DNA of 64,000 bases from Paraburkholderia sprentiae WSM5005. GTDB taxonomy: Bacteria; Pseudomonadota; Gammaproteobacteria; Burkholderiales; Burkholderiaceae. Shown here piece by piece: positions 28,131 to 43,830 of this stretch. The notes under the pieces are model-generated. The model was not told where the DNA came from. It saw only the letters and a list, made by a program, of their open reading frames with translations, and ran no database searches. Location: NCBI RefSeq assembly GCF_001865575.2, contig NZ_CP017562.2, positions 2,108,001 to 2,172,000 of the forward strand. The letters run 5' to 3'. How positions within the stretch are numbered: the stretch's first letter is position 1; each line of letters begins with the position of its first letter. The translations under genes and the position numbers were made by a program.

Positions 28131-29309
28131 CTACTTGACGAACGCAACGCTCGACGGGTCGGTGACATCAGCCGATTCTCCGGTGTCCGCCAACCTGCCC
28201 GACGCCGCATCGATGCTGAAGACGTTGACCTTGCCGCTGCGTTGATTCGCGACGAGCAGCCATCGCCCGGACGCATCGATGCCGAAGCCCCACGGCTTGT
28301 CGCCGCCCGACGCGATACGCTGCACGAGCGAAAGCTTGCCCGTGTCCGCCTTCACACGATAGACGACCAGCGCGTTTTCCCCGCGATTCTCGACATACAC
28401 GAAACGCCCGTCACGACCGAGCGTGATTTCCGCGCCGCTTTTCACGCCGTCGAATCCATCACTGCTGATTGGCAGCGATTGCACGTGCGTCAGCGTGCCT
28501 TGCGTCGCATCCCAGCGCAACACCATCACTTCCGCGCTCAACTCGGTCAGGAGATAAACGAACTGTCCGTTCGCGGAGAATTCGAGGTGGCGCGGCCCGC
28601 TGCCGGGCGGCGCGACGAAGGTGGCCGCGCGCGTGCCATCGTCCTGCGACAGCGCATGCGTCGCGCGATCGAAGCGATAGACGAACACGCGGTCCGCGCC
28701 GAGATCGGCAACCAGCGCGTAGCGCCCGGATGGATCGATTGCGACACCGTGTGCATGCGCGCTCGCCTGGCGGCGGTTCGGGCCGTCGCCAGTCTCCGCG
28801 AGCGTCGAGACGAGCGGGCCGACGCTGCCGTCCGCATTGACCGCGACGCTCGATACCGAGCCGCTGTTGTAATTCGCCCCGAGCAAGGTCATCGACGGTG
28901 CGTCGAAGCGCAGGAAGGTGGTGCCGCGTCCGCCCGTCGGCACCACGCCGAGCGGGCTCAGCGAACCGTTGTGCTGATCGACCGCGTACGCGGTGATGCT
29001 GCCTTCTTTAGCGCTGTCGTCGTCGACGGCATACAGCACCGGTGCGTGCGGCGACGCCGAGACCCACGTCGATTTCGGCCCTTCCGCAACGGCTCCGAGC
29101 GCGGTCAGTGCGCCGGTGGAGGCATCGAAGCGCAGCGCGCTGATCTGCTTGTGCAGCGTGCCGATATAAACGAATTCAGTTTGCGCGGGCGCCGGTACCT
29201 TCGCGGCGCGCAGCGGTGCGCCGACCATGCCCGCCGACAAAGTCAGCGCGGCGCACGCCGTCGTCAGCGCGTGCCGCGCGGCGTGATTCTGCTGGAACGA
29301 CCGGGTCAT
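28131..29309 (-). CDS. Secreted lactonase-family beta-propeller protein (6-phosphogluconolactonase-like)
   Basis: A 392-residue protein of the Pgl/lactonase (seven-bladed propeller) family with a signal peptide of about 35 residues, so it is exported unlike cytoplasmic Pgl. Blade repeats are visible as GALTALGAV, GSLSPLGVV, GTLTHVQSL and TGKLSLVQRI, and the family motif SGPRHLEFSANGQFVY. A copy of the element shared with the aromatic cluster lies 67-101 bases upstream, so it is probably coregulated. Its substrate may be a lactone or pyrone formed in that pathway; this is inference. Confidence 0.8.
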   Translation of the reverse strand: MTRSFQQNHAARHALTTACAALTLSAGMVGAPLRAAKVPAPAQTEFVYIGTLHKQISALRFDASTGALTALGAVAEGPKSTWVSASPHAPVLYAVDDDSAKEGSITAYAVDQHNGSLSPLGVVPTGGRGTTFLRFDAPSMTLLGANYNSGSVSSVAVNADGSVGPLVSTLAETGDGPNRRQASAHAHGVAIDPSGRYALVADLGADRVFVYRFDRATHALSQDDGTRAATFVAPPGSGPRHLEFSANGQFVYLLTELSAEVMVLRWDATQGTLTHVQSLPISSDGFDGVKSGAEITLGRDGRFVYVENRGENALVVYRVKADTGKLSLVQRIASGGDKPWGFGIDASGRWLLVANQRSGKVNVFSIDAASGRLADTGESADVTDPSSVAFVK

Positions 29310-29375
29310 ATTCGATGAACGTCAAGACGCAGGCGATGTGAGCGATCGACCAAGCGTAGTCGAATCGCCGTTGGT

Positions 29376-29410
29376 CGTCCCTGCACAAAAAGTCGATTCG
29401 CCTGGACTTA
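29376..29410 (-). promoter_or_regulatory. Copy A of the shared ~36-bp regulon element, upstream of the lactonase
   Basis: Read towards the lactonase gene the element is AAGTCCAGGCGAATC followed by GACTTTTTGTGCAGGGACG. It aligns without gaps to copies B, C and D (conserved core: GAATC, eight-base spacing to TTTTGTG). Its left half is the least conserved of the four. The likely reader is the AraC-family protein encoded at 29447-30376. Confidence 0.65.
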
Positions 29411-29446
29411 TCGAAAACGACTTTGGCGCGAGCTCGTCGCCACGCG

Positions 29447-30376
29447 CTAACGGTTCGGCTGCTGCCGCGCCGCGACGCGAAACTGGCTCGGCGCCTGGCC
29501 CACTTCCCTGCGGAAGAAACGCGTGAAGTACGCGGCGTCCGCGAAGCCGAGCCCGAACGCGATCTGCTCGACCGACATGTCGCCGAAAATCAGGTTGCGC
29601 TTGGCCTCCGCGATGATGCGCGCGTGAATCATCTTGGTCGGACTTTGCTCCGATGCGGACGCGCAGGCCGCGCGCAATTGCACGAGCGAGACGGCCATCA
29701 TCGACGCATAGTCCTGCAGCGTCAGATTCTCGCGGTAATGCTCGTCGATCAGTTTGCGGAAGCGGTCCACCTGGCGCATGTCGTTGCGCGTCGCGCTTTC
29801 GTTCGCGGCCTGCTCGAGCGGCGTTGCGCGCGCGAGTTTCAGCAGCAGCGTGGTCAGCAGCGCTTCGGTGCCGACCACGTGGCCGAGCGCATCGGATTCG
29901 GCTTCCAGTTTGAGGCTATCGACGAGGCTGTAGAACGCCATGCCCGCATCGCTGGACCCGGCGAGCGGAATCACGCGCGGTGCCTCCCACAGCGCGATGA
30001 ACTCGCGCAGCTTCGCGTTGATCTGCGTCAGATACGCGACCTCGATCGTCACGACCCAGCGGTCAGCGTCGACTTCGTAGTCGAGACCGTGCACGCATTC
30101 GGTGGGTAGCAGCAACGCGCACGGGCCCTCGAACGGTACGCTCTCGCCTTCGAGATTCATCACGCCGCGTCCGCTCCGCACGAAAATCACCTGACCGTAA
30201 GCGGGATGCGCGTGCGGCTCGGTGCGCCAGCGGCCACGGTCGGTTACGTGTCCGACGTGCACGAACCAGTTCTTCGCTTCGGGACGCTCCACGTATAAGC
30301 GGACCTTGGGCACGGTGGTCCGTTTCGCCTTCGCGATCGCTCTGGGCTGGTGTTTTGCCGCGGCGCTGTGTGTCAT
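29447..30376 (-). CDS. AraC-family transcriptional regulator
   Basis: A 309-residue regulator. The N-terminal part is a cupin-like sensor (EPHAHPAYGQVIFVRSGRGVMNLEG, residues about 55-80); the C-terminal 100 residues are the double helix-turn-helix (LTLQDYASMMAVSLVQLRAACA and MSVEQIAFGLGFADAAYFTRFFRREVGQAPSQFR). The ATG at 30376 follows AAGGAG. Its place between the lactonase and porin genes, and the shared element in front of both, make it the best candidate activator of the aromatic regulon. No copy of the element is seen in front of its own gene. Relatives include 4-hydroxybenzoate regulators such as PobR. Confidence 0.85.
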   Translation of the reverse strand: MTHSAAAKHQPRAIAKAKRTTVPKVRLYVERPEAKNWFVHVGHVTDRGRWRTEPHAHPAYGQVIFVRSGRGVMNLEGESVPFEGPCALLLPTECVHGLDYEVDADRWVVTIEVAYLTQINAKLREFIALWEAPRVIPLAGSSDAGMAFYSLVDSLKLEAESDALGHVVGTEALLTTLLLKLARATPLEQAANESATRNDMRQVDRFRKLIDEHYRENLTLQDYASMMAVSLVQLRAACASASEQSPTKMIHARIIAEAKRNLIFGDMSVEQIAFGLGFADAAYFTRFFRREVGQAPSQFRVAARQQPNR

Positions 30377-30692
30377 ACAGTCTCCTTGACGGCCGATTCG
30401 CTCGCGCTCGCGGCCTTCATGGCAATCGCGGCCCGCTGCGGAAAATCGGCGGCCGCCGAGACGCGACAGAACCGCTGCGGCGCTCGGCATGCAGTGCTTG
30501 TAAGAGGTGCCGAGGCCGGAGCGGTTGTCTGCTCGATGATTTGCCAACGCGGCAAAGTATTTACCTGGTCACCAAGAAAACCGCCCCAGCCTTCGGGCAT
30601 CATCCTAGCACTGTGGAAAGACTCGCGGAAACGGGCGAATTTTTCCAGGCATTTCCAGCCATACATCGAGCCGGCGACTTTACGCGGTGGCC
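30377..30692. other. 316-bp spacer upstream of the AraC gene
   Basis: No gene is supported. The stretch must hold the promoter of the AraC-family gene and the 3-prime end of the porin transcript. No clear terminator or copy of the regulon element was found. Confidence 0.4.
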
Positions 30693-31778
30693 TCAGAACT
30701 TGTGTACGAGGCCGACGCCGACGCCGCGCGTGTCGGTGCCGGGAGTGACCGCAAGGCCCGAATACGCGGTGCCCGACAGCGTGTATGCCGCCTGATTCCG
30801 GTTCTGCAGAAAGCCGGCCGCTGTATAGAGCTCGGTCGATTTGGACAGGGCGTACTCGAAAAGCAGACCTAATTGCTGCGCATTGTTGCCCTTCCCCGTG
30901 CGATCGTGCAAGTAACCGTACATCAGCGAAACCAGCGCAAATGGGTCGATCTGGTATGAGTCGGAAATCTGATAGACGTCGTGCTGCATGTATTTCGGCG
31001 TATGGGTCAGATTCTCCGTGTGGTAGGCCAGCCAGACGCGGTTGGCGCCGATCGCATACGAAGCGCCCGCGTTGAACACGCTCAGTACCGCGCCAGGACC
31101 CGCGGCAGCACCGCCCGCCAGCGCATAGCTCCCCCCCCCTCCGATGGCTGGTTCGTCGCCTCGTTCGTAGCCGGCCGCGACGTTCAACGGTCCGTTGCCG
31201 TACTGGACGACTGCGTTGTAGAAGCCAATCCCATTGCCCCCTCCGGTCGCTGGATCGCGCAATGCCACCATGAACTTGGCATTCAGCCCGCCGAACGTTG
31301 GGGTGTAGTACGAAATACCGTTGTTTGCGCGGATGATCAGCGCGTTGAAGTTATTCATCGGCGAAGCAATGCTCTTAACCCAGGACGGATCCATTGCCGC
31401 CTGCAGCACGTCGTATTGCGGCGAGTTTTGCAAGCCGAAGCGCACTTCTCCGAAGCCACCGGACAGGCCGACGAAGGCCAGACGATTGAAGGCCTTCGTC
31501 GGGTCTGTCGCTGCACCCGTCTGACCGGAAAAGGCCTGCTCCAACTGGAAATTGACGTGAAGTCCGCCGCCGATATCCTCACTGCCCTTCAAGCCGAAGC
31601 GCGTCGAGAAAAGGCCGCCGGGTACCGCGCGGATCGTCGAACCTTTGCCGCTCGAACTCTGATAGGCCAGGCCATTGTCGAGCACGCCATAGAGCGTGAC
31701 CGACGACTGCGCGAACACGGCGGAAGCGGAACCGCAAAACAGGACTGCGCCCGATGCGAGAGTGATCAATCTTTTCAT
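30693..31778 (-). CDS. Gram-negative porin (Burkholderia trimeric type)
   Basis: A 361-residue outer-membrane porin. The signal peptide ends SAVFAQ, followed by SSVTLYGVLDNGLAY; then GLKGSEDIGGGLHVNFQLEQAFSG and the loop region FNRLAFVGLSGGFGEVRFGLQ. The terminal GVGLVHKF ends in Phe, as needed for assembly. GGAGAC precedes the ATG. A copy of the regulon element lies about 130-170 bases upstream, so this porin is probably the dedicated entry channel for the aromatic substrate of the cluster at 32-41 kb. Its intact state contrasts with the broken porin at 1204. Confidence 0.9.
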   Translation of the reverse strand: MKRLITLASGAVLFCGSASAVFAQSSVTLYGVLDNGLAYQSSSGKGSTIRAVPGGLFSTRFGLKGSEDIGGGLHVNFQLEQAFSGQTGAATDPTKAFNRLAFVGLSGGFGEVRFGLQNSPQYDVLQAAMDPSWVKSIASPMNNFNALIIRANNGISYYTPTFGGLNAKFMVALRDPATGGGNGIGFYNAVVQYGNGPLNVAAGYERGDEPAIGGGGSYALAGGAAAGPGAVLSVFNAGASYAIGANRVWLAYHTENLTHTPKYMQHDVYQISDSYQIDPFALVSLMYGYLHDRTGKGNNAQQLGLLFEYALSKSTELYTAAGFLQNRNQAAYTLSGTAYSGLAVTPGTDTRGVGVGLVHKF

Positions 31779-31907
31779 GCGACGTCTCCATTTTTATACA
31801 CATCGGAATACCGATGCTTTTATCTAAATCATTTTGTTGGCGTACCTACACGAGCGAAGCAGCGATAGCCCGCTGCCGGAGCCAAGAATATGGGATGCCA
31901 TGCACCG

Positions 31908-31947
31908 CGTCCTTACACAAAAGTCAGATTCACTGGCATTTTTTTTC
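31908..31947 (-). promoter_or_regulatory. Copy B of the shared regulon element, upstream of the porin
   Basis: Read towards the porin: AAAAAATGCCAGTGAATC, then TGACTTTTGTGTAAGGACG. It keeps the TGCCA, GAATC and TTTTGTGTA blocks at identical spacing to copy D. It shares the divergent region with copy C, which points the other way. Confidence 0.7.
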
Positions 31948-31994
31948 TGGCGATGCACGCAGGCAACGGCTGCGACCACCGTCCCTCTCTAATT

Positions 31995-32030
31995 AAAAAG
32001 TGCCAGCGAACATCATTTTTGTGTAAAGGC
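31995..32030 (+). promoter_or_regulatory. Copy C of the shared regulon element, upstream of the MFS pseudogene
   Basis: Read towards the MFS remnant: AAAAAGTGCCAGCGAACA, then TCATTTTTGTGTAAAGGC. It is on the opposite strand to copies A, B and D, but again points at the gene it precedes (72 bases to the ATG). Two bases of the GAATC block differ. Confidence 0.7.
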
Positions 32031-32101
32031 ATTCACGCGTGCATCGCGTACATTCTCATCGGGTTTTTCCGACCCGAATCGACTTGGCAAGAGAACGAAA
32101 C

Positions 32102-32462
32102 ATGGAAGACATATCAAGGCCACCGTGCGCCCGCGAAAACCCGTGGGCCATTCTCGTGCTGCTCGCGCTCGGCCTGCTCATTTCCTTTATCGATCGAACG
32201 AGTCTGTCCGCGGCGCTTGCGGACTAACATTTCGTGCGCGAGTTTGCGCTGACGAGCGTCGAGCGAGGCGGGCTCAACTCGGCGGTGTTCTGGTCTTACG
32301 GCCTCGTGCAGATGCCGATGGGTTGGATCGTTGACCGCTACGGCGTCAAATGGCCGTACGCCATCTGCTTCGTGCTGTGGTGCGTCGCCGCGGCCGCGAC
32401 CGGCATGGTGACGACACTGGCCGCACTGGTCGTCATGCGGCTTCTGATCGGCGTCGCCGAAT
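32102..32462 (+). pseudogene. MFS transporter remnant (5-prime end only, with internal stop)
   Basis: The reading frame begins MEDISRPPCARENPWAILVL and follows the intact MFS permease encoded at 36894-38174 closely (LLISFIDRTSLSAALAD). A TAA stop falls at codon 42, where the paralogue has Ala. The frame then resumes (HFVREFALTSVERG, FWSYGLVQMPMGWIVDRYGVKWPYAI) and ends abruptly after LLIGVAE at about 32462, where the sequence changes to the end of the next gene. About three quarters of the permease is missing. The promoter element (copy C) is still there. Confidence 0.85.
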
Positions 32463-32469
32463 ACGATCG

Positions 32470-33366
32470 TCAGCCGAGGCTGCCCGTCACATCGTCGAAC
32501 AATTCATCGACCGACAAACGATGCGGCAGGATCTTCTGATCGAGCGCCCAGTCGATGGCCAATTGCAACCCCTTGCGGTTCTGCTCGAGACCGATGGGCG
32601 GAAACACCGCAGGCGTGCCGCCTTCGGTTTGTGTGCGGCTCTCGACGATCATCCGGTACAACTCGCGCACGACCTCCGGGCGCTGCTTCGACAGATCCTG
32701 ATGGACGACGAACATGTGATTGACCGGCACCACGCCCTCCCGCGCGAACCACGCTTTCGCGGCGTTCTGCGCATCGGGCACCAGCGTGCGCACACGCTCG
32801 TCCTTCGGCATGTCTTCGCCGAGCAGCGCCGCGGCGAGCTCGCCGTTCATCATCATCTGCGGGATCGACGAACCGGCGGGCAGGCGCACGCAGTGGTTCG
32901 GATCGCGATACTCGGCGAGGTGGCCGTCGCCGAGCGTCATCCACGTGACCTTGTCGAGATCGACGCCGTATTCGTGGCGCAGAATGCCGCGAATCCACAG
33001 CGCGGTGGTCTGCGTATAGGTCCGCACGCCGACCTTCTTGCCTTCGATGTCCTTCGGATCGAGATGGCCGAAGTCGATGTTGAAGCCCGCGCAATGATGC
33101 TGAAAGCGGCCCGAGATCGGCGTCGGCAGCAGCACATAGGGCTTGCCGTAGGCTTTCGCCTGCAGGAACGTGACGATCGCGAGTTCGCCCGCATCGAACG
33201 CGTTTTCGCGCACCATCGCCTTGAAGCCGTTATGCGCGGGCGTCGGTCCGCAGAAGTCGAGCGTGACGATGTTCGAGCTCACGCGCCCGTCTCTGATTGC
33301 CTTCGTTACCGGATAGTCGGCCAGATTGGTGCGCAGCGTCGGCACCGCCGTTTGCGTCGTCGTCAT
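32470..33366 (-). CDS. Pht5-like protein (4,5-dihydroxyphthalate decarboxylase / solute-binding-like), copy 1
   Basis: A 298-residue protein with the type II periplasmic-binding fold but no signal peptide. The conserved block DPKDIEGKKVGVRTYTQTTALWIRGILRHEYGVDLDKVTWMTLGDGH matches proteins named 4,5-dihydroxyphthalate decarboxylase (Pht5). FKAMVRENAFDAGELAIVTFLQAKAYGKPYVLLPTPISGRFQHH is equally typical. A cytoplasmic location favours an enzyme over a transport receptor, and a decarboxylase would deliver a dihydroxybenzoate to the ring-cleavage enzyme. It is the last gene of the minus-strand cluster. A second member is at 40256-41233. Confidence 0.7.
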   Translation of the reverse strand: MTTTQTAVPTLRTNLADYPVTKAIRDGRVSSNIVTLDFCGPTPAHNGFKAMVRENAFDAGELAIVTFLQAKAYGKPYVLLPTPISGRFQHHCAGFNIDFGHLDPKDIEGKKVGVRTYTQTTALWIRGILRHEYGVDLDKVTWMTLGDGHLAEYRDPNHCVRLPAGSSIPQMMMNGELAAALLGEDMPKDERVRTLVPDAQNAAKAWFAREGVVPVNHMFVVHQDLSKQRPEVVRELYRMIVESRTQTEGGTPAVFPPIGLEQNRKGLQLAIDWALDQKILPHRLSVDELFDDVTGSLG

Positions 33367-33394
33367 GAATGTCGGTCCTTATGCTTGAACGAAA

Positions 33395-34942
33395 TTACAG
33401 TCTCACCTCGATGAGACACGGGCCGGCCGCATGCACGGAATCGGCGATGGCCTTGTGGAAAGTTTCCGCCGTGTCGACGGCGACGGCCGGTACACCCATG
33501 CTCTTCGCCATCGCGAGCCAGCCGATGCGCGGACGGTCGATGTCGATCATCGCGAGCGCGCGCTCGCCCGGCGCGCCAGCGCCCATGTTGGCGTACTCGG
33601 CCTTGAGGATCGCGTAGCTGTTGTTGGCGAAGATGATCGTCGTGATGTTCAGGCTCTCGCGTGCCTGGGTCCACAGCGACTGGATCGTATACATCGCGCT
33701 GCCATCGCCGACCATGCAGAACACGCGGCGCTCCGGGCACGCCAGCGCGGCGCCGGTTGCTACCGGCGTGCCGTAGCCGATCGAGCCGCCCATGTTGTTG
33801 ATCAGGTCGTGACGCGCAGCGCCGACGGTCAGGCCCATCGTCTCGCGGCCGGTGGTCAGCGATTCGTCGACGAGGATGCAGTCTTCCGGCAACGCCGCGG
33901 CAAGCGCTTGCGCGATGCTCGTGGGACTCAGTGCGCCGGTGGGCGCGTCGGCGTTCGCGCGCTGCTGCAACACGGCTTGCGTGCTGGTCGCGCCGAGTGC
34001 CTCGACCAGCATGTCGAGCGCGGCCGTGCCGTCCTCGCCCACTTCCGCCAGCGCATGCACGCTGGTGCCGGCCGACTTCAGCAGACTCGGCTTGTCCGGG
34101 TAACTAAAGAAGGCGATCGGCTCGGTCGTCTCGACCGTGATGATGTGGCGAAAGCCCTTCAGGTAGTCGACCGCCGCGTTTACCGCGTATGGAATCCGTT
34201 CGAGCATCACTCGCCCCGCGCCGCGTTCGATGCGCGTGCTGAAAAACTGCGTCGCCAGACGGCAGCCGCTCGCCGCCTTCAGCCTGCCCGCGAGTTCGAG
34301 CGCGCGGCCGCGCGTTGCACGGCCGGCCAGCACGATCAGCGCGGGCTCGCCCGAGCGCAGCACCTGCGCGATGTGCTCGACGCGCGCGGCCTCGGGCTTG
34401 CCTGGCTGCGCGACCGGCAGCTTCGGCAGTGAGACTGTTTCGCCCGCGTCCTGCCACGACGCATCGCCGGGCAGAATCAGCGTGGCGATTTGCCCCGGAT
34501 ACCCGCTCGCCTTGCTCACCGCCGCGGCCACGTCCCACGCGACCGCGCGCGGCGATTCGACGCGACGCACCCAGTGACTGAGCGGCCGCGCGAGGCCTTC
34601 GATATCGGACATCAACGGCGGATCGTATTTCAGATGCGCGGCCGAATGCTCACCGACGATATTGACCATGCCGGACGACGCGCGCTTGGCATTGTGAATA
34701 TTGGCCAGCCCATTCGCGAGACCAGGTCCGAGATGCAGCAGCGTCGATGCGGGCGTGTCCTTCATCCGGTAATAGCCGTCGGCGGCGCCCGTGCAGACGC
34801 CTTCGAAAAGACACAACACGCTGCGCATGCGCGGATTGTCGAGCGCCTTCAGAAAGTGCATCTCCGAGGTGCCGGGATTCGCGAAACAGATGTCGACGCC
34901 GTGATCCGTCAGCGTATCGACGAGGCTTTCGGCTCCGTTCAT
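33395..34942 (-). CDS. Thiamine pyrophosphate-dependent enzyme (acetolactate synthase/benzoylformate decarboxylase-like)
   Basis: A 515-residue three-domain TPP enzyme. The N-terminal Pyr domain has the catalytic Glu in LCLFEGVCTGAADGYYRM; the C-terminal PP domain carries the cofactor motif GDGSAMYTIQSLWTQARESLN followed by ANN. Members decarboxylate 2-oxoacids or make acetohydroxyacids. It begins directly after the aldolase stop (TGA-ATG), so the two are coupled. Within an aromatic pathway its job could be to process a 2-oxoacid product; the substrate is not evident. Confidence 0.8.
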   Translation of the reverse strand: MNGAESLVDTLTDHGVDICFANPGTSEMHFLKALDNPRMRSVLCLFEGVCTGAADGYYRMKDTPASTLLHLGPGLANGLANIHNAKRASSGMVNIVGEHSAAHLKYDPPLMSDIEGLARPLSHWVRRVESPRAVAWDVAAAVSKASGYPGQIATLILPGDASWQDAGETVSLPKLPVAQPGKPEAARVEHIAQVLRSGEPALIVLAGRATRGRALELAGRLKAASGCRLATQFFSTRIERGAGRVMLERIPYAVNAAVDYLKGFRHIITVETTEPIAFFSYPDKPSLLKSAGTSVHALAEVGEDGTAALDMLVEALGATSTQAVLQQRANADAPTGALSPTSIAQALAAALPEDCILVDESLTTGRETMGLTVGAARHDLINNMGGSIGYGTPVATGAALACPERRVFCMVGDGSAMYTIQSLWTQARESLNITTIIFANNSYAILKAEYANMGAGAPGERALAMIDIDRPRIGWLAMAKSMGVPAVAVDTAETFHKAIADSVHAAGPCLIEVRL

Positions 34943-35800
34943 TCAATACCCCGCCATCTCGCGCGCCATGCCGACCACGCCATAGCTGCGCAGCGGCGCC
35001 GACATCAGAAAGCGGTAGCCCTCTTCGATCAACCGCTTGTGGTTCTTCGCGTTCACGTGCGGATTGCCGACCACCACATCGTGCTTGTGGCAGGTGTCGA
35101 CGATCTTGCGCATCGCGTCGACCACGATCGGGTGTTCGTAATCGCGCGGATGGCCGAGCTCCTGGCTCAGGTCGCCCTCGCCGATCAGAATGAAACCGAT
35201 GCCCGGCACGTTCGACAGAATGTCGTCGAGATTCTCGATCGCCTCGGTGCTTTCGCACATCAGTCCGACGAGGATTTCGCCTTCCGGCGCGAGCGGCCAC
35301 ACGTCGGCCTTCCGGTAGTAGTCGGCCATGCTCAAGCCCCAGTAGCGCGCGGCGGTTGCGGGACCGTCGCCGCGCACGCCTTTCGGCTCGTACAGCGGCG
35401 CGTTTTTCGGCCGCGCATAACGGCACGACGCGACCGCGTTATAAGCCTGTTCGACCGTCGCGACATGCGGCCACACCACGCCGTAGACGCCGCGATCGAG
35501 CACCTGCTTGGCGAACGCCTGATTCATCTCGGCGCCATTGGCCGGAATCCGCGCGATCGGCGTGACGCGCGGCGCGACCGAACCGGCTTCGACGATCGCC
35601 TTGCGATTGAGCATGTACTGCAAAGCGTCGCCCAGCGCCGACACGTCGTACGGGTTGTGCTCCATCTCGAACACGATGCCGTCATAAGGCGCGTCGCTCA
35701 TGTCGATCGCGGTCTGCTTGTCGAGTTTCGAAAATGCGGTGAATGCGGGCTTGCCGGATTCGAACGCGCGAATGATGCCGTTGAGACGGTTTTCGCTCAT
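34943..35800 (-). CDS. HpcH/HpaI-family class II aldolase
   Basis: A 285-residue aldolase of the HpcH/HpaI/citrate-lyase family. Visible marks are DGIVFEMEHNPYD near the start, PIARIPANG, the Glu of VGLMCESTEAIENLDDI, and GEGDLSQELGHP with metal-binding Asp. Such enzymes split 4-hydroxy-2-oxoacids to pyruvate plus an aldehyde or oxoacid. In the OMA pathway the usual aldolase (LigK/GalC) belongs to the RraA family, so this would be a non-homologous replacement for cleaving 4-carboxy-4-hydroxy-2-oxoadipate. It lies between the dioxygenase and TPP-enzyme genes. Confidence 0.82.
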   Translation of the reverse strand: MSENRLNGIIRAFESGKPAFTAFSKLDKQTAIDMSDAPYDGIVFEMEHNPYDVSALGDALQYMLNRKAIVEAGSVAPRVTPIARIPANGAEMNQAFAKQVLDRGVYGVVWPHVATVEQAYNAVASCRYARPKNAPLYEPKGVRGDGPATAARYWGLSMADYYRKADVWPLAPEGEILVGLMCESTEAIENLDDILSNVPGIGFILIGEGDLSQELGHPRDYEHPIVVDAMRKIVDTCHKHDVVVGNPHVNAKNHKRLIEEGYRFLMSAPLRSYGVVGMAREMAGY

Positions 35801-35845
35801 GATGTTGCTCTCTGGTGAACGCGAGAATTAGAAGGTGAAGCCAGA

Positions 35846-36832
35846 TCAGTCGGCGGCTTTCCAGTACATGAAGCCCATGCCTTCGCCGGTGCCGGCGGGC
35901 GTGCGCCAGCACGGCACATAGTCGACCAGCGTCATTTCAGCGCCGGTCTCCTGTACCGCCTTCATCACGCTGACGTACAGCTTGATCTCGGAGGTGCCCG
36001 ACTGGTACGAACGGTTGTCCACCGCCGCGAGGCCGTCATAGTCGTAGTCGGCCAGCATCTTCATGATGCGGTGATCGAACTCTTCGTCGTTGACGAAGTG
36101 CGACAGGCCGCCCGACGCGAAGATGCCCACCCGTACGTCGTCAGGCCATGCATGGATCGCGTCGCGCAACACGCGGCCGAATTCGATGCAACGCGACATC
36201 GACGGTTGCGTCGGCGGATAGAAGCAATTCATGATGACCGGCACGTGCGGCGGCGGGTTGTCGCCCATGATCTGGTGATACACGAAGCTGTAAGCGTGCG
36301 GTACCACCGGGTACTCGGGCAACGGCTTCATCCACACGTTGTCGGGCCACGCGAACAGATCGGTCAGATCGAAGCCCTCATTCTGGAAGTACCCGATCAG
36401 GTAAGTCGCGAGCTTCGGATGGCAGTCGTGCGTCACATGATGATCGGGTGCATAGACCGAACGTTGTGGCGGACCGTTGTGCACTTGCGCGCCGCTATAG
36501 ATCGCGATCGACGGGGAGAAAGCGGTGAAGATCTCCTTCTGGTCCTTGCCGAGAATGATCGCAACGTCGACGTTCGCTTCGCGATACGCGGCCGCCATCG
36601 TGTCGAGCGCGCTACGGCAGCGGGCGGCGCGCGCGGTGCGCTCTTCGAGCGTCAGGTACTGCTCGAACGCGGCTTCGCGATGCGCTTCGAGCTCGGGGTA
36701 CGTCCACGTGCGATTGCGATACCACAGTTCCGGGTTGTTGCGGTCGCGCTCCCCGTTCTTGAGCCAGTCTTCCGGGGCCTGGCCCAGCATGCCGCTGTGC
36801 GGCACCGCCATCCCGAATACGATCTTCGCCAT
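35846..36832 (-). CDS. Class III extradiol ring-cleavage dioxygenase (LigB superfamily)
   Basis: A 328-residue non-haem iron dioxygenase. LigB-type features are the N-terminal metal His in AVPHSGML, ILGKDQKEIF, a His-rich stretch DHHVTHDCHP, HVPVIMNCFYPPTQPS and GIFASGGLSHFVNDEEFD near the active site. It should open a catechol-like ring next to the hydroxyls. No LigA-type small subunit, separate or fused, is present, unlike protocatechuate 4,5-dioxygenase and gallate dioxygenase. The neighbouring LigJ-type hydratase argues for a product at or near 4-oxalomesaconate, so gallate or a related trihydroxy acid is a good guess. Confidence 0.8.
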   Translation of the reverse strand: MAKIVFGMAVPHSGMLGQAPEDWLKNGERDRNNPELWYRNRTWTYPELEAHREAAFEQYLTLEERTARAARCRSALDTMAAAYREANVDVAIILGKDQKEIFTAFSPSIAIYSGAQVHNGPPQRSVYAPDHHVTHDCHPKLATYLIGYFQNEGFDLTDLFAWPDNVWMKPLPEYPVVPHAYSFVYHQIMGDNPPPHVPVIMNCFYPPTQPSMSRCIEFGRVLRDAIHAWPDDVRVGIFASGGLSHFVNDEEFDHRIMKMLADYDYDGLAAVDNRSYQSGTSEIKLYVSVMKAVQETGAEMTLVDYVPCWRTPAGTGEGMGFMYWKAAD

Positions 36833-36893
36833 GTGCGTTTCTCAAAAAATGAATATGTCCAGAGGCCGCCATATGCCGGCCCTGCTACGAGTG

Positions 36894-38174
36894 TTAGGCC
36901 TGCCGCAACCTGCTCGGTGCCTCGGTCACCTTGGGTGACCATTCAGGGCGGTACAGGACGATCGTCGCCATCGCGCCGACAAGCAGGAATCCGAGGATCA
37001 CCATCATCGGCAGGTCGTAGCTGCCGCTCACGTGCAGCAGCCAGCCCGACAGGCTCGCCGCCACGCCGCCCGCAAGACTGGTCGCGAGTTGCTGAACCCC
37101 GGTGACGAGCCCGATTGCCTGCCTCGGAATCAAGGTCAGGCGCGACAGCACCAGATTGTTCGCCGTGACGAAACCGAGCAGCGAGAGGGAAAACACATTC
37201 CAGAACAGCGCCATCTGCAGCGTCGGCGCATACGCACCGAGCAGTACGCTGCAGCCACCAACGAACCCGGTCACGGTGAAGATCTTGCGGACCAGGATCG
37301 GATCCTTGCCGCGGGCAATGATCAGATCGGCAGCGGAGCCCGCGAGAGCCGCGACGATCGCGATTCCAGCGAAGCTGAAAAACGTGAAGAGCCCCGAGCG
37401 CGAAATCGACAGACCGCGTTGCTCGACCAGATAGGCCGGCATCCACGTCATGCAGTAGAACGTGAAGTAGCCATAGCAGAAGTTCGTGATCATGCCGCCC
37501 CACACGACCGGACTCGACAGGATGTTGCCGAAGGTCACGGTGCGAGCGCGGCGATTTGCCTGCGCGAGGTCCGCTTTGGTCGGCAGATCGTTGCGCACCA
37601 GCAGCAGCCATGGCGCGAGCCAGATCAAGCCGGCGAGACCCGTCACGATGAACATCAGCTTCCACGAGTAAGTGACGATGATCCAGGCTGCGATCGGCGC
37701 ACCGAGCGCGGGGCCGAACTTATTACCCATGGCTAGCAGGCCGACGGCGAGACCGTTTTGTCGTTCGTCGAAGTTATTGCGAATCCATCGATAGCTGGCG
37801 GGTATCACGATCGCCTCGGCCACGCCGATAATCAGCCGCATCAGCACGAGTGCGCCGAGTGTGGTCACGAGGCCCATCATCGTCGTGGCGATGCACCACA
37901 GCGTGAAGCTGATCGCATACGGCCATTTGACGCCGTAGCGGTCGGCGACCCAACCCATCGGCACCTGAAACAGCCCGTACGACCAGAAGAACGCCGCGTT
38001 GATCCAACCGCGATCGACGTCTGTCAGCGCGAAGTGCCGAATGAAATTCGCGTCCGCCAGCGTCGACGAAATGCTGGTGCGATCGACAAACGAAATCAGC
38101 ACGCCGATTGCAAGAAGCGCAAGCACCGCCCAGCGGTTCGTGATTCCTCGTCGTTCAGGTTTGCCCGTCTCCAT
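36894..38174 (-). CDS. MFS transporter, anion:cation symporter (aromatic acid uptake)
   Basis: A 426-residue permease with 12 predicted helices. The MFS loop motif is VADRYGVKWPYAISF after helix 2, and LMRLIIGVAEAIVIPASYRWI follows. It resembles the anion:cation symporter family that imports aromatic and sugar acids. The start at 38174 (METGKPERRG) was chosen from family length; its ribosome site is weak, and upstream in-frame starts up to 40 residues earlier are possible. It sits inside the ring-cleavage operon, so it should carry the pathway substrate. The pseudogene at 32102 is a decayed relative. Confidence 0.85.
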   Translation of the reverse strand: METGKPERRGITNRWAVLALLAIGVLISFVDRTSISSTLADANFIRHFALTDVDRGWINAAFFWSYGLFQVPMGWVADRYGVKWPYAISFTLWCIATTMMGLVTTLGALVLMRLIIGVAEAIVIPASYRWIRNNFDERQNGLAVGLLAMGNKFGPALGAPIAAWIIVTYSWKLMFIVTGLAGLIWLAPWLLLVRNDLPTKADLAQANRRARTVTFGNILSSPVVWGGMITNFCYGYFTFYCMTWMPAYLVEQRGLSISRSGLFTFFSFAGIAIVAALAGSAADLIIARGKDPILVRKIFTVTGFVGGCSVLLGAYAPTLQMALFWNVFSLSLLGFVTANNLVLSRLTLIPRQAIGLVTGVQQLATSLAGGVAASLSGWLLHVSGSYDLPMMVILGFLLVGAMATIVLYRPEWSPKVTEAPSRLRQA

Positions 38175-38268
38175 CTGTTTGTTCTCTTCAGTTTGATTGA
38201 ATGCTGCATGCATGCCGCCGCGAACCATGCACCCCTTCACGGGCGGCCGGCCCGGATAGCGCCGAATC

Positions 38269-39120
38269 TCAGGCGAGCGCCGGATAAAGCTGCTGCGCGG
38301 TCTTGCCGAAAATCCACTCGCGGTCCTCATCGTCGAGCGTTGCGAGGCCGGCTTGCGCGGTCGCGAGAATGTCCGCGAGCGTGCCCGGCGAGGTCGGATA
38401 ATTCGAGCCCCACGCCATCCGTTGCGCGCCGAATGCTTCGACCACGCGCGGGAAGAAGGTCTCGGCGCTCGCCTTCTCCTTCTTTACGTCGCCGAAAATG
38501 CGCGGCGTCAGCTTCAGATAGATGTTCTCCAGCGACGCAAGGTCGAACAGGCTCTGCGCCTTCGCATAGGGGGCGCCGTCCGCGACCTCGGGACGCCCGA
38601 GATGATCGAGGACGATGCGCACGTTAGCGAAGCGCCGTGCGAGCGCGGTGACCTGCGGCAAGCCGATCGGTCCGGTCTGGATGCACATTGGCAGGCCAAG
38701 CTCGCCGCAGAGCTCCCACGCGGGAAACGATCGCGGATCGTCGAGCTCGCTCGGATCGAACTCCTTCGTGCTGCCGCCGGTGAACAGACGCAGGCCCGCA
38801 AGACCGCGCTGGACCCATGCGCGGATGCGTGCCGGCGCATCGGGGTCCAGCACGTCGACCGAGCCGACCGCGACCAGACGGTCCGCGTATTTTGCACAGC
38901 CGTCGACCACGTAGCTGTTGTCGAAACCGTACGTGGTCGACGAGTGAACCACCGCTGCTTTGGCGACGCCGGCCGCATCCATCGCTGCGATCAGCGTTTC
39001 GACCGTGGTCGGCCGTTCCTTCGACCACTCCGAGCGCTTGCCGAACAGCGGCGCGGGTGGATAGCGGGTCTCGTCGTCGGAAATGATGTGCGGGTGAATA
39101 TCAACGATTGAGGAAGTCAT
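38269..39120 (-). CDS. Amidohydrolase-superfamily metal-dependent hydrolase (COG3618-like)
   Basis: A 283-residue TIM-barrel hydrolase. The metal-binding HxH is in VDIHPHIISDD near the start; further metal or catalytic positions are IVLDHLGRPE and the terminal WGSNYPTSPG. The superfamily includes LigI, which opens 2-pyrone-4,6-dicarboxylate, a by-product of gallate and protocatechuate 4,5-cleavage, so a lactonase or pyrone hydrolase is plausible. The ATG at 39120 follows GAGG. Longer upstream frames are shadows of the next gene. Confidence 0.78.
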   Translation of the reverse strand: MTSSIVDIHPHIISDDETRYPPAPLFGKRSEWSKERPTTVETLIAAMDAAGVAKAAVVHSSTTYGFDNSYVVDGCAKYADRLVAVGSVDVLDPDAPARIRAWVQRGLAGLRLFTGGSTKEFDPSELDDPRSFPAWELCGELGLPMCIQTGPIGLPQVTALARRFANVRIVLDHLGRPEVADGAPYAKAQSLFDLASLENIYLKLTPRIFGDVKKEKASAETFFPRVVEAFGAQRMAWGSNYPTSPGTLADILATAQAGLATLDDEDREWIFGKTAQQLYPALA

Positions 39121-39182
39121 GAATGCCTCGGTATCTTGCTCATTGCATGCGGCTTGCGCCGCGAAACGTGCTGCGCTCGAGC

Positions 39183-40208
39183 TTATTTGCCGCGCGCTTT
39201 CAGACGCGCATCGAGGCGCGGATAAACCCGCCGTGCGTTGCCTTCGAAGATCTTGTGGCGATCCTGGTCGCTCAGCGCCGCGCAGCCGTCGATATAGCGC
39301 TTCGTGTCGTCGAAGTAATGTCCGGTTGCCGGATCCTTGCCGCGCACCGCGCCGATCATCTCCGAGCCGAACAGCACGTTGTCCGCGGGAACCACCTTGG
39401 TCAGCAGCTCGACGCCCGGCTGGTGATAGACGCACGAGTCGAAGAAAATATTGTTCAGCAAACCTTCCAGAGGACGCTCGCGCATTTCGAGCGACATGCC
39501 GCGATAACGGCCCCAGTGATACGGCACCGCGCCGCCGCCGTGCGGAATCACGAGACGCAGCGTCGGGAAATCCTTGAACAGGTCCGATTGCAGGATCTGC
39601 ATGAACACTGACGTGTCCGCATTCAGATAGTGCGCGCCAGTGCCGTGGAAACACGGATTGCACGACGCGGCGACGTGAATCATCGCCGGTACGTCGAGAT
39701 CGACCAGCGCTTCGTACAGCGGGTACCACTCGCGGTCGGTCATCGGCTTGCCCGTCCAGTAGCCGCCGCTCGGGTCCGGGTTCAGATTGCAGCCGACGAA
39801 ACCGAGTTGCTCGACGCAGCGGCGCAATTCGGCGATCGAATTCGCGGGCGCGACGCCCGGCGATTGCGGCAGTTGGCAGACCGGTGCGAAGTTGTCCTGG
39901 TAGAGTTCGGTCACGCGGTACACGAGGTCATTCGACACTTCGGCCCACTCGAGGCTCGTGCGTTCGTTGCCGAGATGGTGGCTCATCAGCCCCGCGATCG
40001 GCGAGAACAGCGTCAGGTCGCTGCCGCGCTCGCGCTGCAGTTTGAGCTGGCCGTTGCCGATCGCTTCGCGAATCTCGTCGTCGCTGACATAGGCGCCATC
40101 ACGCGAGGGCGCATTGGCCGGGTCGTTCGCAAACTGGACCTGTTTGGCGCGCCAGGCGCGAAAGGAAGCCGGGACGGTCGTGAAATGACCGTGGCAATCG
40201 ATAATCAT
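39183..40208 (-). CDS. ligJ: 4-Oxalomesaconate hydratase (LigJ-type amidohydrolase)
   Basis: A 341-residue member of the amidohydrolase superfamily that follows the LigJ pattern along its whole length: start MIIDCHGHFTT with His6 and His8 as metal ligands, then RGSDLTLFSP, LPQSPGV, NLNPDPSGGYWT, CNPCFHGTGAHYLNADT, VIPHGGGAVPYHWGR, NNIFFDSCVYHQPG and EGNARRVYPRLDA. LigJ adds water to 4-oxalomesaconate to give 4-carboxy-4-hydroxy-2-oxoadipate. GGAGACACC precedes the ATG. This is the best-identified enzyme of the cluster and fixes the pathway type. Confidence 0.88.
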   Translation of the reverse strand: MIIDCHGHFTTVPASFRAWRAKQVQFANDPANAPSRDGAYVSDDEIREAIGNGQLKLQRERGSDLTLFSPIAGLMSHHLGNERTSLEWAEVSNDLVYRVTELYQDNFAPVCQLPQSPGVAPANSIAELRRCVEQLGFVGCNLNPDPSGGYWTGKPMTDREWYPLYEALVDLDVPAMIHVAASCNPCFHGTGAHYLNADTSVFMQILQSDLFKDFPTLRLVIPHGGGAVPYHWGRYRGMSLEMRERPLEGLLNNIFFDSCVYHQPGVELLTKVVPADNVLFGSEMIGAVRGKDPATGHYFDDTKRYIDGCAALSDQDRHKIFEGNARRVYPRLDARLKARGK

Positions 40209-40255
40209 GGTGTCTCCGTTCGAATCGCCGGGTCGGCGATAAGTGGTGTTGCGCC

Positions 40256-41233
40256 TTAGCGGGCGAGCGGGTCGACGAACAGCTCGTCGATCGACATGCG
40301 GCGCGGCGTGAGACCCTGCTTGAACGCGGTTGCTTCGAGGGTTTCGATCGTCTGCAGGTTTTCATGCAGACCGTACGGCAGCGGATCGTGACCGACGATC
40401 TTGCGCAGTTCGAGATACTTCTTGTCGCTTGCGCTCGTCGCCTCACCCGCATCGAGACCCTCGAGCCATTCTTTTTTCGCCTGCGCGAACGCATCGAACA
40501 GCGATTTCGCGATCCACGGATGCGCAGCGAGCACCGAGTCCTTGACGACGATCGTGCCGTGCATCGGATACACGCCGGTGCGCGCGTAGTACTCGGTTTC
40601 GAGTTCGGTCGCGTTCGGCAGCAGATCCGGGTAATCGGCCTCGACTTCCTGCCAGCCACCCGTCGGCGCGCCGGTGCGGCCGATACCGGCGGCTGCGGCA
40701 ACTCCGGCCGACAGTTCGCCCGACGCCATCATCTGCGCGAGCGAGCTGCCTTGCGGCGCGTGCACGACGTTCGACGGCAGCTTCAGTTGCGTCACGTGCT
40801 CTTCGTCGTCGACGACCCACGTGACCTTCGACGAGTCGAGACCGAACTCATCGATGAGCACCTGACGTGTCCACACGCCGGTCGTGACCGAATAGGCGCG
40901 CACGCCGACCTTTTTGCCTTCGAGGTCCTTCGGCGTATTGATGCCCGCGTCCGGACGCACCAGCAGACCGCCGTGATGAAAACGCCGCACGACGAAGATC
41001 GGCAAGCCGACGAACGGCGCGCCATAAGCGCGCGCGATGATGTAGGTGGTCGGCGCGAGTTCGCAAACGTCGAATTCGACGTCGCGCACCATGCGGCGGA
41101 ACGCGCCGATTTGCGGCTTGACGGTGACGAACTCGGCGTCGACGCCTTCGATAGGGATGGACCGGTTACGAATGGCCGACGTGTGCGGATGCTCAGCGAT
41201 CGCGATCTTGAGCGGGACTTTCTTGGTCAACAT
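40256..41233 (-). CDS. Pht5-like protein (4,5-dihydroxyphthalate decarboxylase / solute-binding-like), copy 2
   Basis: A 325-residue relative of the product at 32470-33366 and the first gene of the cluster. Shared blocks are FRRMVRDVEFDVCELAPTTY, VGLPIFVVRRFHHGG, PKDLEGKKVGVRAYSVTTGVWTRQVL and a C-terminal DELF ending. There is no signal peptide. The two copies are clearly different in sequence, so they are not a recent duplication and may act on different acids or form one enzyme. The regulon element (copy D) lies 98-137 bases upstream and should drive the whole block down to 32470. Confidence 0.72.
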   Translation of the reverse strand: MLTKKVPLKIAIAEHPHTSAIRNRSIPIEGVDAEFVTVKPQIGAFRRMVRDVEFDVCELAPTTYIIARAYGAPFVGLPIFVVRRFHHGGLLVRPDAGINTPKDLEGKKVGVRAYSVTTGVWTRQVLIDEFGLDSSKVTWVVDDEEHVTQLKLPSNVVHAPQGSSLAQMMASGELSAGVAAAAGIGRTGAPTGGWQEVEADYPDLLPNATELETEYYARTGVYPMHGTIVVKDSVLAAHPWIAKSLFDAFAQAKKEWLEGLDAGEATSASDKKYLELRKIVGHDPLPYGLHENLQTIETLEATAFKQGLTPRRMSIDELFVDPLAR

Positions 41234-41330
41234 CCTCTCCTGTGGATTGATCGTCGCGCGCTGCGGGATACGGGTCGCAGCGTAGGACGTGTCGTCTCGA
41301 TGGCGTAAGAATAGGAGAGGTTGGGACAGG

Positions 41331-41370
41331 CGTCCCTACACAAAAAGTAGATTCAATGGCACTTTTTGGT
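41331..41370 (-). promoter_or_regulatory. Copy D of the shared regulon element, upstream of the aromatic cluster
   Basis: Read towards the cluster: AAAAAGTGCCATTGAATC, then TACTTTTTGTGTAGGGACG. It is the closest to the consensus and heads the eight-gene minus-strand run. The match with copy B covers about 30 of 37 aligned positions by eye. Confidence 0.72.
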
Positions 41371-42013: not shown

Positions 42014-42697
42014 TCAGGTAGCCTGTCTCCGCGCGATTTCCATCACGATCCGACGCCGCGCGGCCAGGCCTTCAGCCGACCGTTGCCGGACCAGCTCGAC
42101 CACCGCTTGCGGCGCCAACGCCGGATCGCCCGCATCGAACGGCGGCGCCGGCGCGTATTCGAGTTCGAGCTGAATCGCCTGTGCCTCTTCGACGCCCGCC
42201 AGTTCGGCCGCCACGGTCAAGCCGAAATCGATGCCCGCCGTCACGCCGCCGCCGGTAATCAGATTGCCGTCGCGAACCACGCGTGCATGCGTCGGTATTG
42301 CGCCGAGCGGCTCCAGCAGCGAGTGGAATGCCCAGTGAGTCGTCGCGCGCCGCCCGCGCAGCAAACCGGCCGCGCCAAGCAGCAACGCACCGGTGCACAC
42401 CGACGTCACGTAGCGCGCGCTCGCGGCCTGGCGGCGTACGAAGTCGATCGTTTGCGCGTCTTGCAACAGGTCGGTCACGCCGCTTCCGCCCGGCACACAA
42501 ATCACGTCGAGCGGCGGGCAGCTTTCGTAAGTCGTGCTCGGCGTCAGCACGAGCCCGTTGCTCGACACTACGGGGTCCCGCGTCTTCCAGACCAGATGCA
42601 TCGTGGCGCCCGGCAACGATGCGAGCACGTCATGCGGGCCGGTCAGATCGAGTTGCTGTACTTTCGGAAACACCAGAAAACCGATTTGCAGGTTCAT
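42014..42697 (-). CDS. DJ-1/PfpI-family protein, isonitrile hydratase-like
   Basis: A 227-residue DJ-1 superfamily protein. The nucleophile Cys lies in YVTSVCTGALLLGAAGLLRGRRATTHW, closely like Pseudomonas isonitrile hydratase InhA, which turns isonitriles into N-formamides. The acidic partner region at the start is FLVFPKVQQLDLTGPHDVL. It is divergent from a GlxA-type regulator, which could control it. Substrate use is inferred from family only. Confidence 0.8.
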   Translation of the reverse strand: MNLQIGFLVFPKVQQLDLTGPHDVLASLPGATMHLVWKTRDPVVSSNGLVLTPSTTYESCPPLDVICVPGGSGVTDLLQDAQTIDFVRRQAASARYVTSVCTGALLLGAAGLLRGRRATTHWAFHSLLEPLGAIPTHARVVRDGNLITGGGVTAGIDFGLTVAAELAGVEEAQAIQLELEYAPAPPFDAGDPALAPQAVVELVRQRSAEGLAARRRIVMEIARRQAT

Positions 42698-42855
42698 AGC
42701 GATGCCTTAATCGAAGAGAGATCGAAACACGTCATTGGCCACTGTTTCCAGATGGACGGATCGATTCTATGCGGGTAGTCTTTGGCAAGACTGCCATTCA
42801 CCCCTTGGTTTCTGCCAGGCACGCGCGCTCTCTTTCCCAGCACTACCTACACGAT

Positions 42856-43830
42856 ATGTCCAGCCCTCCCCGCTCCATCGTGCTGCTCGCGTTCCCCAAC
42901 ATGCAATTGCTGGACGTCAGCGGTCCACTGCAGGTATTCGCTTCCGCCAATGAACTCGTCACGCAGCGCGGGCTCGACACGCTCTACGCGCCACACGTCG
43001 TGGCAGCCGAAGGCGGGCCCGTCACGTCGTCGTCAGGCCTCGCGGTGCTTGCCGGTTCGCTACGTTCGGTGAAGGCGCCGGTCGATACGCTGATCGTTCC
43101 CGGCGGCTGGGGCATTCGCGAGGCATTGGCCGATCGTCGTCTGATCCGCTGGACGCAGCGCCAGGCGCCGCATTGCAGACGCGTCGCCTCGGTCTGCTCG
43201 GGCGCGTTCCTGCTGGCCGAGGCGGGGCTACTCGACGGCCGGCGCGTCGCCACGCATTGGGGGCGTTGCGACGAACTCGCGCAGGCGTATCCGCAACTGC
43301 ATGTCGAAGCCGATCCGATCTTCATTCGCGACGGCGCGATCTGGACATCGGCGGGCGTCACGGCCGGTATCGACCTCGCGCTGGCCATGCTCGAAGAAGA
43401 TCACGGACGCGCGTTGGCGCTCGAGGTCGCGCGCGAACTCGTCGTGTTTCTGAAGCGGCCGGGTGGTCAGTCGCAATTCAGCGCGACGCTCTCGCTGCAA
43501 CATGCCGACGACCGTTTCGGCGAATTGCATGCTTGGATGACATCGCATCTCGCGTCCGACCTGTCGGTCCCCGCGCTCGCGCGACGGCTTCATATGAGCG
43601 AGCGCAGCTTCATGCGCCACTACAAGGCGCAAACGGGCCGCACGCCCGCCCGCGCGGTCGAGCAGCTGCGCATCGAAACGGCACAGCGCTTGCTGAGCGA
43701 AACGTCCTGGTCGATTAAACGGATCGCGACGCGATGTGGATTCGGCAGCGAGGAAACCATGCGCTGCAGCTTCGTGCGTCAGCTGCGCGTGGCGCCGCAG
43801 GTGTATCGCGAGCGTTTTTCGTCGACGTGA
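42856..43830 (+). CDS. GlxA-family transcriptional regulator (DJ-1 domain plus AraC HTH)
   Basis: A 324-residue regulator joining an amidotransferase-like DJ-1 domain (residues about 8-190, with VASVCSGAFLLAEAGLLDGRRVATHW) to an AraC-type DNA-binding domain (residues about 215-315: LSVPALARRLHMSERSFMRHYKAQTG, then WSIKRIATRCGFGSEETMRCSF). The ATG at 42856 is preferred to one 29 codons upstream because it fits family length. It shares a promoter region with the isonitrile-hydratase-like gene on the other strand. Confidence 0.85.
   Translation: MSSPPRSIVLLAFPNMQLLDVSGPLQVFASANELVTQRGLDTLYAPHVVAAEGGPVTSSSGLAVLAGSLRSVKAPVDTLIVPGGWGIREALADRRLIRWTQRQAPHCRRVASVCSGAFLLAEAGLLDGRRVATHWGRCDELAQAYPQLHVEADPIFIRDGAIWTSAGVTAGIDLALAMLEEDHGRALALEVARELVVFLKRPGGQSQFSATLSLQHADDRFGELHAWMTSHLASDLSVPALARRLHMSERSFMRHYKAQTGRTPARAVEQLRIETAQRLLSETSWSIKRIATRCGFGSEETMRCSFVRQLRVAPQVYRERFSST

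Follow-up and report, generated by a model that had tools for sequence, protein, structure and literature searches.

A promoter element with a probable AraC-type reader appears to join sensing, uptake and ring cleavage of an aromatic compound in Paraburkholderia sprentiae and relatives

The window analysed here is a stretch of 64,000 nt from Paraburkholderia sprentiae WSM5005 (contig NZ_CP017562.2, positions 2,108,001 to 2,172,000). It contains four copies (A to D) of a short oriented element, a gene for an AraC-family protein (araC) and an eight-gene operon for ring cleavage of an aromatic compound (Table 1). It had been proposed that one activator, probably the AraC-family protein, reads all four copies and thereby controls uptake (porin and permease) and catabolism together. 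The copies lie where the original prediction had placed them, and they align without gaps when anchored on TTTTGTG. As had also been predicted, each copy is directed towards the gene downstream of it, namely a lactonase gene, a porin gene, the fragment of a major facilitator superfamily (MFS) transporter gene and the eight-gene operon. Copy A is the weakest, with three mismatches to the search pattern compared to none in copies B, C, and D.

The operon behind copy D extends from 41233 down to 32470. A LigB-type extradiol dioxygenase and a 4-oxalomesaconate hydratase-like protein, the combination expected for meta-cleavage of the 4-oxalomesaconate type, are encoded together in it. The operon therefore looks like a protocatechuate/gallate-4,5-type meta-cleavage pathway for some carboxylated catechol, a substrate class suggested by the presence of two 4,5-dihydroxyphthalate-decarboxylase-like proteins. 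The riboflavin pathway was considered and rejected, since it shares enzyme classes with the operon but has a different gene set in the part of PMC12746152 that describes it. The MFS gene behind copy C contains an in-frame TAA at 32225-32227 (codon 42) and breaks off near 32466. Judged from its sequence, copy C is thus an apparently intact promoter that has outlived its gene and would now drive a dead MFS fragment.

Table 1. Positions of the element copies, the -10-like hexamers and the genes discussed (window coordinates, except for the fifth copy)
Feature	Position	Strand	Remarks
Copy A	29376..29411	-	5' of lactonase gene; weakest, 3 mismatches to RTGCCANNGAAYNNNNNTTTTGTGYARRG; distal half degenerate
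Copy B	31908..31943	-	5' of porin gene; 0 mismatches; araC 3' of porin, same strand
Copy C	31996..32031	+	divergent from copy B; 0 mismatches; precedes MFS fragment only
Copy D	41331..41366	-	5' of eight-gene ring-cleavage operon; 0 mismatches
Fifth copy	G000:C2:1177801-1177829	+	outside window; 0 mismatches, with -10 box
-10-like hexamer of copy A, TACGCT	29353..29358	-	at fixed spacing
-10-like hexamer of copy B, TATTCT	31885..31890	-	
-10-like hexamer of copy C, TACATT	32049..32054	+	
-10-like hexamer of copy D, TATTCT	41308..41313	-	
AraC/XylS-family regulator, 309 aa	29447..30376	-	probable reader; Pfam HTH_18 1.1e-18, HTH_AraC 1.1e-7
7-bladed beta-propeller lactonase	28131..29309	-	target of copy A; PF10282 5.4e-99
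Porin	30693..31778	-	target of copy B; PF13609 1.4e-49
MFS transporter remnant	32102..32466	+	behind copy C; 67% to operon MFS; no 3' part
Operon gene 1, 4,5-dihydroxyphthalate-decarboxylase-like	40256..41233	-	PDB 9jp7, E 2.7e-43
Operon gene 2, 4-oxalomesaconate hydratase-like, close relative	39183..40208	-	PDB 2gwg, E 6.4e-149
Operon gene 3, amidohydrolase, distantly like 2-pyrone-4,6-dicarboxylate hydrolase	38269..39129	-	PF04909; PDB 2ffi, E 7.2e-7
Operon gene 4, MFS permease	36894..38177	-	PF07690
Operon gene 5, LigB-type extradiol dioxygenase	35846..36832	-	PF02900; PDB 1b4u, E 6.1e-5
Operon gene 6, HpcH/HpaI-type aldolase	34943..35800	-	PF03328
Operon gene 7, thiamine-diphosphate enzyme	33395..34942	-	PF02776, PF02775; above NF005760 cut-off (acetolactate synthase large subunit)
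Operon gene 8, second 4,5-dihydroxyphthalate-decarboxylase-like protein	32470..33366	-	PDB 9jp7, E 8.1e-17

A degenerate search pattern, RTGCCANNGAAYNNNNNTTTTGTGYARRG, was derived from copies A to D. It matched four times in the window, whereas 100 dinucleotide-shuffled versions of the window gave no match; the four copies are real and not a product of chance. As the pattern was built from these copies, a fair test has to use sequence outside them, in the same genome and in others. When up to three mismatches were allowed, only five matches were found in the genome of 7,840,207 bases and none with the pattern read backwards; many unrelated matches, which would have spoken against the proposed regulon, were not seen. 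The five matches are the four window copies and a fifth copy without mismatches at a distance of 0.96 Mb. All five sites carry TANNNT at the same spacing. A second pattern, consisting of GAAY, the second half-site, GGACG, 17 free bases, and TANNCT, was likewise searched with up to three mismatches; its only matches were four of the five sites, all of them free of mismatches. Copy C was missed because of its tail AAAGGCA and its -10 hexamer TACATT.

The conserved unit turned out to be longer than the roughly 36 bp first noticed. It comprises about 59 bp, AAAA-RTGCCA-N2-GAAY-N5-TTTTGTGYARGGACG-N17-TANNNT, and consequently each copy of the element makes up the upstream portion of a promoter. We collected 168 sites from 44 genomes, using up to three mismatches and a light TTT/GTG pre-filter within the stretches fetched around matches with at most two mismatches. 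TANNNT, which is not part of the search pattern, begins exactly 21 nt past the pattern in 165 of these sites, as opposed to 0.3% of random positions, and it is present at this distance in all 20 sites with three mismatches. The box is missing at this distance in the site of G118, in one of those of G142 and in one of those of G022. For 140 distinct sites (at most two mismatches, G118 excluded) the consensus reads AAAA-RTGCCA-K-Y-GAATCT-N3-TTTTGTGYARGGACG, followed by 17 mostly weakly conserved bases and TA(T/C)NCT. Conservation at positions that the pattern itself demands is built in, so that the independent evidence comes from the remaining positions. Of these, the AAAA block carries 1.8-2.0 bits per base, and positions 50, 51, and 55, which belong to the -10 box, carry 1.9 bits each; the RC of the RGRC that comes next after the pattern is conserved as well. 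Given a 17-bp spacer, the -35 region would correspond to RGGACG, the final part of the element; RGGACG, or AGGCA in the C-type sites described below, precedes TANNNT by 17 bp in 165 of the 168 sites, the -35 region being placed by this spacing only.

Two explanations in which the element needs no regulator of its own can be judged from these data. Near-identical copies at several places could represent a dispersed repeat, mobile or palindromic, or could have arisen by chance. We rejected both and regard this explanation as having next to no likelihood: the copies are oriented to the following gene, their spacing to the -10 box is fixed, this genome has five of them, and the shuffles gave none. 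Moreover, in a sample of 398 genomes of the family, lone matches with two mismatches were found in four genomes that lack the regulator, a rarity similar to that of the backwards control, which matched in two. Second, a plain promoter class, read for example by an alternative sigma factor and without an activator of its own, would also have a -10 box at a constant distance, as seen in 165 of 168 sites. Yet the AAAA block is conserved some 50 bp 5' of the -10 box, and the sites are restricted in two ways: in this genome to one pathway, the chemoreceptor described below apart, and among genomes to those that carry one regulator gene. A plain promoter class is thus very improbable.

The regulator in question is the AraC-family protein. 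Its C-terminal domain contains two helix-turn-helix (HTH) regions (PF12833 with 67.7 bits at residues 223-300, cut-off 33.6; PF00165 with 32.3 bits, cut-off 26.6), and many residues of both are invariant among 26 aligned araC orthologs. For an N-terminal effector-binding/dimerisation domain, Cupin_2 (E 2.5e-4) and AraC_binding (E 6.1e-4) gave matches that were both below their cut-offs. Orthologs were defined by an E value of at most 1e-60, the best copy per genome showing 64-100% identity. We compared their occurrence with that of the sites (at most two mismatches) in 144 genomes of the same genus and in the family sample, 338 members of which belong to other genera. Within the genus 40 genomes contain the ortholog and 44 contain sites, whereas the backwards control gave no match in any genome. 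Sites are present in all 40 genomes with the ortholog and in four of the 104 without it. The same holds for the other genera, with sites in 16 of 16 genomes with the ortholog and in three of 322 lacking it, and for the family sample as a whole (36 of 36 versus 5 of 362, the five being G142 and the lone two-mismatch matches in G118, G175, G438, and G459). Fisher's test gave 2e-31 for the genus and 1e-24 for the other genera, both values ignoring relatedness.

The four genomes of the genus that have sites but no intact regulator gene are informative. In G094 a 62-codon match to the 3' part of araC lies beside the sites, and the start of the 4,5-dihydroxyphthalate-decarboxylase-like gene is kept, as judged by eye. 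G104 contains sites and fragments of the operon, and neither a close dioxygenase nor a close araC. G142 has two sites, one of them without a -10 box, and no intact cluster genes were found beside them. These three genomes are relics of cluster loss: the sites have been kept, but of araC and of a large part or the whole of the operon there are fragments at most. That the cluster is broken in all three genomes with good sites and no regulator ties sites and regulator further together. The fourth genome, G118, has a single two-mismatch match without -10 box, which we read as chance. The dioxygenase of the operon (91-100% identity, best copy) was found in 39 genomes of the genus, all of which contain araC; G145 has araC but no dioxygenase. 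In nine genomes the LigB homolog is no more than a distant one (37-42%), and there the araC ortholog and the element are both absent.

The element could still be read by a different regulator encoded elsewhere, such as a LysR-type, an IclR-type or another AraC-type protein, araC being a mere neighbour in the cluster. Additional araC copies with 65-73% identity, several of them in the same cluster, occur in seven genomes (G078, G085, G099, G141, G151, G153, and G163) and may share the sites, and in G136 and G013 open reading frames that by eye look LysR-type follow sites or lie in their vicinity. When the stretches fetched from the 44 site-bearing genomes were examined for window proteins, however, araC was the sole regulator among those sought that is kept with the sites: it was found in 40 of the 44, as compared to three for the other AraC-type regulator of the window (42769-43830). 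The site is also asymmetric and strictly oriented, and in loci of Oxalobacteraceae it is situated between araC and the operon. A regulator other than the AraC-family protein is therefore unlikely, although it has more in its favour than the two explanations above.

For the other genera, 15 loci out of 42 araC loci were scanned with up to five mismatches. The element adjoins araC in four Caballeronia, three Cupriavidus, two Janthinobacterium, one Trinickia, and one Herbaspirillum locus and in one of two Duganella loci. At this threshold it was not found in the second Duganella locus, in a Stenotrophomonas fragment that starts inside araC, and in a distant Cyclobacterium locus (26%). The simplest arrangement, with the site between araC and a divergent operon, is seen in Herbaspirillum, Janthinobacterium, and one of the two Duganella loci. 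The closest AraC protein among the 42 loci is that of Paraburkholderia monticola (93%). Taken from this comparison of genomes, the AraC-family protein of the window is very probably the reader of the element. The three parts of the earlier proposal, one regulator, several targets and a reader of the AraC type, thus find support in the comparative evidence (40 of 40 and 16 of 16 genomes). Joint control of uptake and catabolism is likewise supported, with a chemoreceptor gene 0.96 Mb away as a probable further target and with copy C apparently serving a dead gene.

Several observations weigh against this reading. Co-occurrence cannot fully separate an AraC protein that reads the site from one that merely shares its cluster, and there is no site directly upstream of araC in the window. 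The LysR-type-looking open reading frames mentioned above belong here as well. A site over the -35 region would allow repression as well as activation. The internal structure of the element is equivocal: a tandem repeat is weakly supported by a 6-base core, for which an offset of 21 was the best of 13 offsets (51%; next offset 26 with 46%), but with a 13-base frame the offset of 21 (29%) falls below 26 and 27 (37% and 36%). In addition, the element contains an A4/T4 dyad that scores 0.575 over 12 pairs and would favour another kind of regulator. A dyad-binding regulator was nevertheless rejected, the best-scoring dyad consisting mostly of A4/T4 and positions 15-17 being little conserved. An AlphaFold model based on 26 close orthologs was too poor to be used (mean predicted local distance difference test score 46).

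The element, the promoter geometry, the targets and the tie to the araC ortholog were computed directly, and from them we infer how the promoter would work. We are fairly confident that the element is the activator-binding half of an AraC/XylS-type promoter family which is read by the AraC-family protein and controls one aromatic regulon. The protein would bind the element, probably with two tandem DNA-binding domains, one at the AAAARTGCCA..GAATC half and the other at the TTTTGTGTAGGGACG half. The second half-site would extend into the poor -35 region (RGGACG), 17 bp ahead of the -10 box (TATTCT/TACGCT). In the presence of an inducer, probably an aromatic acid of the operon pathway or an intermediate, the protein would recruit RNA polymerase and activate the regulon. 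This regulon would consist of the porin, the inner-membrane permease, ring cleavage towards 4-oxalomesaconate-type intermediates, and the lactonase, supplemented in relatives by a Tsx-like outer-membrane channel. A chemoreceptor, presumably sensing the same compound, would belong to it in the present genome and in several others.

The chemoreceptor was found through the fifth copy, as the gene for a 510-aa methyl-accepting chemotaxis protein (PF00015, 1.9e-46) starts 272 nt past it. By eye, transposase-like open reading frames were seen after the fifth copy and the receptor gene. Orthologs of the receptor (E at most 1e-150) are present in 18 of the 144 genomes of the genus, 17 of which contain araC while the remaining one is G104. 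Thirteen of the 18 loci have a site (at most four mismatches), and in nine of the 18 the site is upstream of and aimed at the receptor gene, at distances up to 1.1 kb (positions read by eye). Control of chemotaxis is therefore well supported in this genome, where the site has no mismatch, a -10 box and the proper spacing, and in several others, and it is not general.

The kind of switch is familiar and the new aspect is this particular regulon; no title on it was among the matches listed from the open-access literature. The closest parallel is XylS and its promoter Pm of the Pseudomonas putida TOL plasmid, with an AraC-family regulator, aromatic meta-cleavage and an oriented site running into the -35 region. 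As described in the relevant sections of the two sources, the XylS sites at Pm are TGCAN6GGNTA direct repeats, the second of which overlaps the -35 box by two bases (PMC4225500), and two XylS monomers bind Pm in sequence (PMC5481539). In the sites studied here the proximal half-site similarly reaches the -35 region, as placed by spacing, with a fixed distance to the -10 box in 165 of 168 sites. Here, in contrast, the half-sites are RTGCCAN2GAATC and TTTTGTGYARGGACG, the internal repeat is weaker, and there are several targets including porin, lactonase, and chemoreceptor. The AraC-family protein is not close in sequence to the NCBIfam models listed in the comparison. The best-scoring curated model was that of HpaA, the regulator of 4-hydroxyphenylacetate catabolism (TIGR02297), with 154.4 bits, which is far below the cut-off of 274.65 bits, and the pathway differs. 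Several close homologs carry the source name 'AraC family transcriptional activator of pobA', but no pobA was identified among the cluster genes. GalR of the galBCD operon in Pseudomonas sp. NGC7 (PMC12314914) likewise activates a pathway that includes gallate-type meta-cleavage steps; however, it is of the LysR type, and according to the abstract of that paper a separate repressor of the GntR type controls the upper genes. In PMC8268980, where enzymes of protocatechuate meta-cleavage, among them 4-oxalomesaconate hydratase, are annotated for Paraburkholderia strains, the term AraC is not used.

As far as the genome comparison allows, one promoter switch, very probably with one reader, would thus join the sensing, uptake and breakdown of an aromatic compound in this bacterium and its relatives. 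For this widespread ring-cleavage cluster, the AraC-family protein and the element are a likely pair of regulator and operator, and the promoter signature is 59 bp long. With the signature, members of the regulon are detected beyond the cluster, such as the chemoreceptor gene 0.96 Mb away, so that it can help to look for the substrate; it could also serve as a sensor part. A broader view is put forward tentatively and may well prove wrong: one AraC-type activator might coordinate the seeking, the entry across the outer and inner membranes and the ring cleavage of an unnamed carboxylated aromatic through a rigid promoter design across Burkholderiaceae and Oxalobacteraceae, with the site variants of each target type encoding the relative expression of the steps.

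Each target type of site has a consensus of its own. When the 168 sites were labelled by their nearest tblastn matches, 37 belonged to the operon, five to operons starting with the MFS gene, 31 to the lactonase and 23 to the porin; 34 were C-type sites (tail AAGGC/GAGGC), six lay within 400 nt upstream of the chemoreceptor and 32 had other neighbours. The last group comprises porin-araC units, broken clusters, genes that by eye look Tsx-like or TolB-like, one LysR-type-looking gene, and the match in G118. The C-type sites were read in part of the genomes; there, the gene behind most of them is Tsx-like, with an MFS gene often coming next, and one site precedes an aldehyde-dehydrogenase-looking gene. 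The label Tsx-like is taken from the names of some homologs, many others being named 'hypothetical protein', with one protein searched by name, and Pfam gave no match for the Tsx-like gene of the relatives. A search of this genome for a Tsx-like gene, run without a positive control, gave none.

Some minor observations concern the surroundings of the sites. The window contains a DJ-1/PfpI gene divergent from the gene of a DJ-1/AraC-type regulator (42014-43830), a pair found in the stretches of three of the 44 site-bearing genomes. At G136:C147:39810 a one-mismatch site is located 85 nt 5' of a LysR-type-looking open reading frame, seen by eye, which might encode a second-tier regulator. In G011 and G002 divergent site pairs were seen by eye between a Tsx-like gene and a TolB/WD40-like-looking gene of about 640 codons, a possible member of the regulon, and G015 and G135 have similar divergent site pairs.

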